From a virus: DNA of 64,000 nt. Made by a program: the position numbers and the translations under genes. The DNA is taken from IMG/VR virus record IMGVR_UViG_3300029914_000023, positions 1-64,000 of that record; one strand, written 5' to 3'. Every line of letters begins with the position of its first letter. Positions within the stretch are counted from its first letter, which is position 1. The notes below the pieces were generated by a model. That model ran no database searches. It worked only from the letters and a program-made list of their open reading frames with translations, and was not told the origin of the DNA. Below, in pieces: positions 59,202-62,847 of this stretch.

Positions 59202-61268
59202 ATGGATTTGGTCGGCACTTCCGCGCTATCAGGAAGCCGTCTCCAGCGAGTACGTGGCAGCCTGCGTCGGATGACCGACTACAGACGCCAGTTCGATCAA
59301 CGCCGGGCGATCTTCTACCGTCAGTACGTTGGTCAGCGCGATGCGCAAAAGTTTCCGGATAACGTAACAAACCGCGCTAATACCTTTGTTCCGTATCCTT
59401 TGTCTAACGTCGAGACCATCGTATCCCGTGTGGACGATGCGTTCTTTAGCTTCGCGCCGTGGTTTGAAGTGGACGGCGTGACTTCCGTGGACGATCATGC
59501 TTCGGAAGCGATGCAGTTGATCCTGGACAAGAAACTCTCTCAGGCCAAGTTCAAGGCCAACTTCGAGGAGTTCGTCAGGACTTGCGCTATTTACGGCTTC
59601 GCCGGTCTCAAAGTTGATTGGGACTGGTCCTACAAAACACTCACAAAGCCCGTACCTACATTCGCTATGCAGAACGGGCAACCGATTCCTGATCCGAATA
59701 CAGGCCAGCCTATCGTCGTTGGCTATCACCCGCAGACTTTCCAAGTCCCGGCGTGTTGCCCGAAGATTACGGCTATCGACATTTACGATCTTCTGGTGGA
59801 CCCCGATGGGGGTATCACCGCCTGTCTGACAGAACGAACGCTCGGCGAGATAAAGCAATACTGTGAAGCCTACAAGCAAGCCACAGGAAGCGACTATTTC
59901 TACCCGGAGTCTCTAGCACAACTAGAAGCACTCATCGTTGAGGCAGAGCCTGAGCAACCAGACAGCGTTCTGGTCCGCTACGCTGAGATGTGGGACAGCA
60001 ACGATAATAGCTGCACCATCGTCACATTCGGCGAAGACAAAGATGCGATTGCCTGGAAGGACCTCCGAGCCAGTTACAGGGCGACAGCCTACAGCCCGTA
60101 CAAGCGGAAGCTGTATGACGGCCCTCCGATCATGCTCTGGACGGGTCCCAACCCATTCGATCACAAGCGGAATCCGATCCTCTTCACAAGTTACATCAAG
60201 CTGCCCAACGAAGTTTACGGCGTGGGCGCTATCGAAGTCATCACTGACCTAACGGAGTCGATGAACAAGTTCGTCAATATGGTGACGGACAACTGGAACA
60301 TGGCAATCAATCGTCGGTACGCCTACGACTCGAACGCCGACATCGACCACGAGCAGTTGAATCAGGCAAACGTTCCCGGTGGGAAGGTAGCAGTCAACGG
60401 TAATCCTTCAGAGGTAATCTTCCCGTTGCCCTTCTTCACACCAACTCAGGGCGACTATGCGATCCTTGAATTGTACAAGGGCATGATCGAAATGGGTTCC
60501 GGTATCAGCGACTTCTATGGCAAGTCCGTAGGATCGCCCACCGGTAATCGTACAGCCACTGGCATTAACTCCGTTATTAACGAGAGCAACTACCGGTTCA
60601 AACTGTTCATCCGCAATCTCGAACTGGATATTCTTCAGCCGATGCTGGCAATGTGTACTAGTATGCTTCAGCAGTACATGTCCGACAAGGAAGAACTCCT
60701 AATCACTAAGTCGCAGCAAGGACCTCAGATTCCTAAATGGATGGTTATTGATCCTGAAGCTATCATTGGTAATTATGAGTTTAATCTGACAGCAGCTAAC
60801 TATGCTACTAATAAACAAGTTAGGCAGAGAAATCTAATGACTTTTGCTCAAGTGGCCCAGCAGACTCCTTATTGGAGAGCAGGTGAGGGACTTAGAGAAA
60901 TTGCAAAAGTCCTTGAGATAAGAAACGCTGATGATCTGATTAAGTCCGAACAGGAAGTTCAAATGGAGCAGGCAGCAGCACAGCAACAGCAAATGCAAGT
61001 TGCGTTCACTGAAAAGGTACTTGACACCGAAGCGGCGATTACCGTTGCCGAGGCGGGTGCTAAGATCAAAGCGGAAGCTGCAAAGGGGGCTACTTTCAAA
61101 AGCCCTCCGAAATCAAACCCTAACAAGCCTGCCTTGAATAGGCCACAGGGCAGGCCACAGCAGCACGAGGTTGCCTTAAAGGGTATCAGCAGTACAGAGT
61201 CTGATACCCGAACCTTTGCTCAATCTAATGGGGGCAATGCCCTAGGAAGGGTTCCAGTTGGCATTTAA
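59202..61268 (+). CDS. Portal protein
   Basis: 688 residues, long-form portal. Conserved sections: NVETIVSRVDDAFFS, GFAGLKVDWDW, IDIYDLLVDP, NPILFTSYIKLPNEVYGVGAIEVITDLTESMNKFVNMVTDNWN, and TGINSVINES. It forms the dodecameric DNA gate, with a Gln/Ala-rich C-terminal barrel-like tail. The last part (from about 60700) is more AT-rich than the rest, hinting at a recombination boundary. Confidence 0.8.
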   Translation: MDLVGTSALSGSRLQRVRGSLRRMTDYRRQFDQRRAIFYRQYVGQRDAQKFPDNVTNRANTFVPYPLSNVETIVSRVDDAFFSFAPWFEVDGVTSVDDHASEAMQLILDKKLSQAKFKANFEEFVRTCAIYGFAGLKVDWDWSYKTLTKPVPTFAMQNGQPIPDPNTGQPIVVGYHPQTFQVPACCPKITAIDIYDLLVDPDGGITACLTERTLGEIKQYCEAYKQATGSDYFYPESLAQLEALIVEAEPEQPDSVLVRYAEMWDSNDNSCTIVTFGEDKDAIAWKDLRASYRATAYSPYKRKLYDGPPIMLWTGPNPFDHKRNPILFTSYIKLPNEVYGVGAIEVITDLTESMNKFVNMVTDNWNMAINRRYAYDSNADIDHEQLNQANVPGGKVAVNGNPSEVIFPLPFFTPTQGDYAILELYKGMIEMGSGISDFYGKSVGSPTGNRTATGINSVINESNYRFKLFIRNLELDILQPMLAMCTSMLQQYMSDKEELLITKSQQGPQIPKWMVIDPEAIIGNYEFNLTAANYATNKQVRQRNLMTFAQVAQQTPYWRAGEGLREIAKVLEIRNADDLIKSEQEVQMEQAAAQQQQMQVAFTEKVLDTEAAITVAEAGAKIKAEAAKGATFKSPPKSNPNKPALNRPQGRPQQHEVALKGISSTESDTRTFAQSNGGNALGRVPVGI

Positions 61269-61684: not shown

Positions 61685-62572
61685 ATGACAGTACAGAATA
61701 CCAGCCAGAGCACCGTGTTTGATTTTAGCGATGCGCCTGGTGGCGATTTGAATCTGGACGACATTTTCGGGGAGAATGCTCCAGCGCCGACAACGACGGA
61801 AATCAACCCCAATCCGCAACCGACTATCACGGAGACAACTCCGCCCTCTACTGAACCAGTCATCAAGACGAAGACCGGGACAGTGTACAAGTCGATTGAC
61901 GACGCCGTTCAGGGCATTGAGCACAAAGATGCGCTCATCGCCCAGCTTCGGGAACAAGTAAAGCAGCAGACGGGGGCAGACCCGCTCGCTGCACGGAAAC
62001 CTGCATCGACACCCCAGCCTGACGGTCCAAAGAGCTACATCGAGGACCAGGAAAAATACTTCGAGGACATCGCTGACGCGGTAGCTAAGAAGGACACCAA
62101 GGCTTATATGAATGCACAGCAGAAGCTGATCTGGGATAGTCTAGGACCATTGGCTCCAACTATTACGGCTTTGTCTAAAGCTAATGCAGAGCGTGTCGTT
62201 GTGCAAGAGATTCCAGACTTTAGGGGCTTCCTTGGGTCAGAGCAGTTCAATCAGCTTGACCAATACAGCCCTCTTCTGGCAGACGCTATCCGCACGGCGG
62301 AGATGAATCCGCAAGCGGCCAGCCAGCTACCAGAGCTTTATAAGGTCGCGTATCTTGCAACTCAGGGCCGTCGAGTCCCGGAACTACTTCAATCCGCGCG
62401 GGCAGAAACTGCTCCCCCGGTTCAACCTCGACCTACGGTTCATTCCACTCAGATTACTCCACCGCCAACTACAGGGGTACAGCAAGTACAACCGAGTTTG
62501 GATACTAAAGAAGGCCGACAGGCCCTTATTAAGCAAATGGAAGCAAATGACATTGGAAACCGTAGATGGTAA
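61685..62572 (+). CDS. Scaffold-like protein
   Basis: 295 residues, acidic, disordered N-terminus (DFSDAPGGDLNLDDIFGENAP), Pro/Thr-rich linker, coiled helices and a basic C-terminal tail (RQALIKQMEANDIGNRRW). Placed between portal and capsid with the composition of a scaffolding protein. AAGGAAAAGC before the ATG. Confidence 0.7.
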   Translation: MTVQNTSQSTVFDFSDAPGGDLNLDDIFGENAPAPTTTEINPNPQPTITETTPPSTEPVIKTKTGTVYKSIDDAVQGIEHKDALIAQLREQVKQQTGADPLAARKPASTPQPDGPKSYIEDQEKYFEDIADAVAKKDTKAYMNAQQKLIWDSLGPLAPTITALSKANAERVVVQEIPDFRGFLGSEQFNQLDQYSPLLADAIRTAEMNPQAASQLPELYKVAYLATQGRRVPELLQSARAETAPPVQPRPTVHSTQITPPPTTGVQQVQPSLDTKEGRQALIKQMEANDIGNRRW

Positions 62573-62587
62573 CATCTAAGGTAAATC

Positions 62588-62761
62588 ATGCTTAAGAATT
62601 TTTTGAATTTCGCGTTCGGCCTTCTGGGTATGGGCGCTGACGTTGTAACTGTTACGACTGGTACTGCTGGCAACTCTGGCAACGTGGCAGCCGATCTACA
62701 GACTTACTTCAGTGCGAAGCTACTGGAAGTCGCCGAGCTTAATACAATCCTGGATAACTAA
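62588..62761 (+). CDS. Major capsid protein, exon 1 (57 codons, then stop)
   Basis: MLKNFLNFAFGLLGMGADVVTVTT to LLEVAELNTILDN, then TAA (62759). This is the N-terminal arm and first helix of an N4-gp56-type capsid. The protein should continue with QFGEKAPVP, which is found 29 bases further on in another frame (62791). Transcript or translation must skip 32 bases, or the gene is damaged. Confidence 0.75.
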   Translation: MLKNFLNFAFGLLGMGADVVTVTTGTAGNSGNVAADLQTYFSAKLLEVAELNTILDN

Positions 62762-62790
62762 TTGGTCCAGATCGAATTGTCTGAATAATG
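62759..62790 (+). other. 32-nt interruption in the capsid gene
   Basis: TAATTGGTCCAGATC then GAATTGTCTGAATAATG. Removing exactly these bases joins GAT AAC to CAA TTT and restores a capsid-like ILDN-QFGEK reading. It contains stops in the incoming and outgoing frames. The flanks are loosely similar (GATAACTAATTGG and GAATAATGCAATTTGG). Confidence 0.6.
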
Positions 62791-62847
62791 CAATTTGGCG
62801 AGAAGGCCCCTGTGCCTAGCAACTCGTCTAAGACGATTCAGTTCGTT
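62791..62847 (+). CDS. Major capsid protein, exon 2 (19 codons)
   Basis: QFGEKAPVPSNSSKTIQFV, the conserved loop of N4-gp56 capsids. Its last 8 bases (AGTTCGTT) pair with an intron guide GACGAACT with U-G at the 5' splice site. The frame leads straight into exon 3 after intron removal. Confidence 0.8.

Follow-up and report, generated by a model that had tools for sequence, protein, structure and literature searches.

Both splice sites of a group I intron are defined by P1, by P10 and by the terminal G of the intron (PMC3984707). Group I introns of phage structural genes, such as the capsid intron of phage LittleE (PMC3706429), follow this scheme: the exon ends in U, the intron ends in G and an internal guide forms P1 and P10. 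The removal of a separate RNA segment by a group I core has been achieved by engineering. Tetrahymena spliceozymes act in trans and excise introns both in vitro and in E. coli, and trans-excision ribozymes remove segments of up to 28 nucleotides (nt) using P1, P9.0 and P10 (PMC4094466). Furthermore, the coding gap in gene 60 of phage T4 has been suggested to derive from a degenerate group I intron (PMC5009743). Here we describe a 35-nt segment which interrupts the major capsid gene within a 64,000-nt stretch of viral DNA (positions 1 to 64,000 of the 64,907-base IMG/VR record IMGVR_UViG_3300029914_000023, in the following called the window). This segment probably represents a group I intron of a non-autonomous, "guide-only" kind, excised by the ribozyme of the complete group I intron next to it.

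The element shares with the phage structural-gene introns the U-ending exon, the G-ending intron, the P1/P10 guide and the capsid setting. Compared to the complete group I introns which occupy the same insertion site in related phages, it comprises a mere 35 nt and the P3-P9 core is absent. As in spliceozymes and trans-excision ribozymes (PMC4094466, PMC4509937), a group I core would remove a separate segment and join its flanks; while those systems are engineered and carry the guide on the ribozyme, the one proposed here would occur in nature and have its guide within the segment to be excised. The T4 gene 60 coding gap is likewise a short out-of-frame insert in a phage gene of the essential type, but it lacks the P1/P10/terminal-G signature and has matched GGA codons instead, while the reverse holds for the window element. 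Degenerate group I introns of lichen ribosomal DNA have lost catalytic parts and are still removed (PMC8527467), as we propose for the present element, yet the intron detected there by blotting measures about 300 nt and resides in ribosomal RNA rather than in a capsid gene. Split organellar introns provide a partial parallel to a coreless element. The group III introns of Euglena plastids are a further parallel as they are reduced and presumably rely on catalytic parts provided in trans; in contrast to the window element, they descend from group II introns, measure about 100 nt and are organellar. Our partial coverage of the literature yielded no precedent from nature for a coreless group I intron which relies on the core of another intron, which is weak evidence for the absence of such a case.

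That the capsid gene is interrupted by an out-of-frame insert had been recognised in an initial annotation of the window, and the interruption is real. Relatives which are uninterrupted at this site read ILD-QFGEK without an intervening N, so that the insert spans 62756-62790. The exon 1 frame does continue past 62755 into AAC-TAA (ILDN*), as had been described, but the N is no capsid residue; the capsid sequence QFGEKAPVPSNSSKTIQFV resumes, in agreement with the initial annotation, at 62791 in a different frame. The length of 32 nt (62759-62790) assigned previously, and with it the supposedly seamless capsid obtained by removing these bases, has to be corrected to 35 nt. It was this boundary shift of 3 nt which concealed the intron signature. 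That the insert precedes a group I intron (62848-63531) by 57 nt is reproduced. Among the options listed by the initial annotation, removal by an unusual intron boundary comes nearest to the evidence, although the P1, P10 and terminal G of the insert itself, the use of its site by group I introns in relatives and its recurrence in other phages had been missed.

With slashes marking its boundaries, the element together with its flanks reads CTGGAT/AACTAATTGGTCCAGATCGAATTGTCTGAATAATG/CAATTTGG. P1 is formed by CUGGAU and GUCCAG and places a U.G pair at the 5' splice site, while P10 is formed by AAUUG and CAAUU; the last base is a G. As the two halves of the guide are adjacent, AAUUGGUCCAG is complementary to the ligated exons CUGGAU-CAAUU. 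The guide is followed by only about 20 nt, too few to accommodate a P3-P9 catalytic core, and Rfam reports no match. Being 35 nt long and devoid of this core, the element is unable to splice itself. Judged by the core it falls outside the group I introns, but it resembles the substrate half of such an intron.

Two further elements of this kind are found in other phages, which we designate by L-numbers. L003 (IMGVR 3300037069_000737) and L057 (IMGVR 3300012203_000012) are, as is the window, metagenomic contigs. The L003 element (38 nt, L003:2260-2297, CTCGAT/AATTAACTGGTCGAGATTAGAGTCGTCTTGGGATAATG/CAGTTCGG) is homologous to that of the window: none of 20,000 shuffles was as similar, and the corresponding value for the tails alone is 2.5e-4. 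Between the two, the exon strands of the helices differ by the synonymous changes CTG to CTC and CAA to CAG, and the guide carries the compensating changes GTCCAG to GTCGAG (P1) and AATTG to AACTG (P10), while the remaining element diverges. Both helices thus stay perfect since the paired positions have changed in exon and guide alike. In relatives without the interruption these exon codons vary freely. The L057 element (34 nt, L057:3175-3208, GGAGCGT/AATTATGGTGCGCTCCTAAGCGTCATACACTAAG/ACCATATAC) is unrelated to the other two and located at a different capsid site, approximately at residue 132; its P1 of 7 base pairs and its P10 of 6 base pairs add up to a guide of 13 base pairs. All three elements possess the U.G pair, a P10 of 5 to 6 base pairs and the terminal G. 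Their guides measure 11, 12 and 13 base pairs and are identically spaced from the splice site. Upon shuffling the bases of each element while keeping the exons fixed, the observed combined score for P1, P10 and terminal G was matched by 1, 5 and 0 of 200,000 shuffles for window, L003 and L057, respectively. In 2.6 Mb of phage DNA, related or co-fetched, a search using 4,293 open reading frames as queries revealed few short gene interruptions (18-130 nt), and solely these three show the signature. A genome-wide search for the signature alone gave 16 matches versus 14-21 with wrong splice-site letters and hence no separation, so that the signature is informative only where homology defines the insertion. 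In a DNA pattern scan aimed at further elements at the window site, the matches listed were chance matches, and a search for introns sharing a common core motif produced additional complete introns at this site and no mini-intron.

The site itself, ILD/QFG, is one at which group I introns reside. Exactly this position is occupied by complete introns, about 160-600 nt long, in L008, L040, L034, L049, L051/L052 and the L392/L407/L410 group; those of L034 and L051 match the Rfam model Intron_gpI with E-values of about 6e-5, under the gathering score. In four of the five complete introns examined at ILD/QFG the same kind of guide, ACTGGTCNAG or AATGGTCGAG, is present. The 203-nt intron of L051 (L051:2213-2415), which matches the group I model, has a protein-defined 3' boundary, GTCTA/CAG, lacking both terminal G and P10.

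The interrupted gene bears the marks of a functional one. When both introns are bridged, the capsid frame yields a match to PHROG 1357, "major head protein" (1.6e-36). Between window and L003, both of which carry the element, the ratio of nonsynonymous to synonymous substitution rates (dN/dS) amounts to 0.06, 0.05 and 0.05 for exons 1, 2 and 3, at a dS of at least 1.27. Since an inactivated gene would not retain such constraint on both sides of the element, the capsid gene works, and the 35-nt insert must consequently be silenced at the level of RNA or of translation.

In each case a complete group I intron follows the mini-intron, separated from it by an exon of 57 nt (window), 57 nt (L003) or 50 nt (L057), such that a complete core is close at hand. 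In the window its P1 is formed by 62841-62847 and 62858-62864 (GUUCGUU with GACGAAC), and a helix check located P3, P4, P5, P6, P7, P8 and P9. The checked core helices are also present in the neighbours in L003 and L057, with one mismatch in P3 of L057; the L003 homologue scores 31 bits against Rfam Intron_gpI, under the gathering score. As 46 of the 69 capsid-matching loci of our last locus set consist of a single exon, a complete intron within 57 nt of the element in both lineages is unlikely to be a coincidence, although the cases are few.

The excision which we regard as probable would proceed as follows. The pre-mRNA would fold such that the P1/P10 helix of the mini-intron docks into the P3-P9 core of the neighbouring intron, either in cis on one transcript or in trans by a freed copy of that intron. 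In the first step, an external guanosine bound in P7 of the neighbour would cleave after CUGGAU; in the second, the terminal G of the 35-mer would take the place of this guanosine and exon 1 would be joined to CAAUUU. The neighbour would remove itself by means of its own P1, before or after the mini-intron, so that one ribozyme would serve two introns. The spliced junctions predicted from this scheme are the 20-mers ATCCTGGATCAATTTGGCGA (window), ATTCTCGATCAGTTCGGGGA (L003) and GTGGAGCGTACCATATACGT (L057). Such a reaction is chemically feasible, because engineered group I cores do excise separate segments. As to its likely origin, the element may have arisen when a full intron residing at this homing site lost its core. 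The more far-reaching view of the arrangement as a natural spliceozyme, in which a single group I ribozyme of the capsid transcript excises both itself and a coreless, guide-keeping intron of 34-38 nt, has in our estimation an even chance of being correct.

Several points weigh against this interpretation. Splicing of the 35-nt element is deduced from sequence data only, and it is solely proximity which would assign the core to this neighbour rather than to another intron of the gene or the genome. The elements number three and represent two independent lineages. P7 of the window intron contains an A.C mismatch (GACTAT with ATAGCC) beside the G-binding pair, where L003 has a standard A-U, so that the proposed core could be weak. 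Finally, the tail of the element yields no significant alignment to the complete introns at ILD/QFG, for which reason its origin by core deletion is not proven.

If the interpretation is correct, group I introns can decay to guide-only introns of about 35 nt which depend on the ribozyme of another intron. This would constitute a class of non-autonomous group I introns, the RNA counterpart of non-autonomous transposons, and its members would rank with the smallest introns that have been proposed for bacteria or phages. It would, moreover, mark a step from one catalyst per intron to one catalyst for several introns. Such a step has been postulated with regard to group II introns and the spliceosome, and we found no natural group I example; the present case would thus offer a group I parallel to the path leading from self-splicing introns to a shared splicing machine. 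Were the borrowing of a core shown, the elements would merit a class of their own. Guide-only introns would escape searches with family models, and Rfam does not report the elements described here. Some apparent frameshifts in phage genes would then be real splice events.

Of the alternatives, two appear improbable to a similar extent. The first retains the guide-only intron but draws its core from elsewhere, be it from another intron of the gene or genome acting in trans or from a different RNA-processing machinery using the guide as a splint. Indeed, signature and gene constraint demand removal without naming the catalyst, a further insertion is present downstream in the capsid gene, and the P7 mismatch of the neighbour fits this view too. 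It would, however, reduce the complete intron within 50-57 nt of all three elements to a coincidence.

The second, translational bypass of the insert, would likewise be a surprising outcome. A stop follows directly upon a possible take-off codon in window (AAC TAA) and L003 (AAT TAA), the length of the insert lies within the known range of hops, and the conversion of a degenerate intron to a bypass element is a published idea (PMC5009743). Take-off and landing codons, however, do not match in any of the three elements: the landing codons ATG, ATG and AAG face GAT/AAC, GAT/AAT and CGT/CAC in window, L003 and L057, respectively. The earlier rejection of a simple matched-codon bypass therefore holds, even if imperfect codon matches are known from yeast mitochondria. 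In addition, L057 reads ten further codons before reaching a stop, and bypass requires neither the P10 complement nor the terminal G, a signature missing from the T4 gap which served as control.

Considerably less probable still is a capsid split by re-initiation, in which translation would stop at TAA (62759-62761) and restart at ATG 62788, leaving the N-terminal 56 residues as a separate peptide. Both window introns do end in an ATG in frame with the following exon (62788-62790 and 63529-63531), and the same applies to L003; L057 shows no such ATG, and neither do the complete introns which were examined at ILD/QFG in relatives. The L057 junction is situated mid-capsid without a start codon, so that re-initiation fails there while it retains a slight chance for the window. 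Furthermore, re-initiation leaves the complementary changes in P1 and P10 unexplained, and exon 2 alone would still run into the next intron. An equally slight chance is given to a dead relic, i.e. a decayed intron in a capsid gene without full-length product. The missing core, the broken frame and the immediate stop would agree with it, whereas the dN/dS of about 0.05 upstream as well as downstream of the element contradicts a dead gene, an option raised initially, and the compensatory changes preserve P1 and P10. An assembly or sequencing artefact, also considered at the outset and conceivable in a metagenomic contig, is the most remote of all since a homologous, diverged element in L003 and an unrelated one elsewhere in the gene in L057 show the same structural signature in independent contigs.

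We also considered a composite intron spanning 62756-63531 and thereby skipping exon 2. It was rejected: relatives keep the 19 residues encoded there, and skipping the 50 nt in L057 would break the frame.

Table 1. Features of the capsid locus and its surroundings (window positions).
Feature	Position	Strand	Basis or remark
Portal gene, SU10/P22-type	59202-61268		
Open reading frame between portal and major capsid genes	61685-62572		
Major capsid gene, exon 1, MLKN...NTILD	62588-62755	+	tblastn against uninterrupted relatives, which continue ILD-QFGEK
P1 5' exon strand, CTGGAT; 5' splice site after T62755	62750-62755	+	Pairs with 62765-62770
Putative 35-nt coreless group I-like mini-intron, last base G62790	62756-62790	+	Missing in uninterrupted relatives; homologue in L003; shuffles 1/200,000
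Internal guide: P10 strand AATTG (62760-62764) and P1 strand GTCCAG (62765-62770)	62760-62770	+	Complementary to ligated junction CTGGAT-CAATT
Exon 2, 57 nt, QFGEKAPVPSNSSKTIQFV	62791-62847	+	tblastn, 100% identity to L002 over 19 residues
P10 3' exon strand, CAATT	62791-62795	+	Pairs with 62760-62764
Complete group I intron, 684 nt, own P1 and P3-P9; proposed core source	62848-63531	+	Helix check; homologue in L003
Intron open reading frame, likely homing endonuclease, LAGLILGDG	62938-63474	+	Weak match to PHROG 5046
P7-P8 region of complete intron; P7 strands 63424-63429 and 63457-63462	63424-63462	+	One A.C mismatch
Exon 3, REEKFSTS..., extends past window end	63532-64000	+	

The end of the window represents the structural module of a tailed phage (Table 1). 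Capsids of cultured phages retrieved by protein search are distant and uninterrupted (22-30% identity to the window capsid); a DNA search of cultured phages gave no match, and a scan of GTDB genome contigs revealed no capsid relatives. Relatives of the intron-encoded endonuclease were found, upon searching, in the L003 contig only.

Introns are unusually frequent in the capsid gene of this phage group, with long insertions at no fewer than ten different sites and up to four per gene (L003, L013, L026, L049, L051, L054, L083, L304, L473 and others), and internal exons in these genes can be as short as about 50-60 nt. Genes of these phages other than that of the capsid contain large insertions as well, which look like differences in protein domains rather than introns. 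The end of the record (L310; 64.3-64.9 kb) lies inside a further insertion, which follows KFAFKAII in the capsid gene; this end shares an identical overlap of 1,370 bases with the L001 contig, where the remaining capsid exon is found. At the opposite end of the window, an abiF RNA (Rfam RF03085) is matched on the + strand at 498-534 with 38.1 bits, barely exceeding the gathering score of 37.
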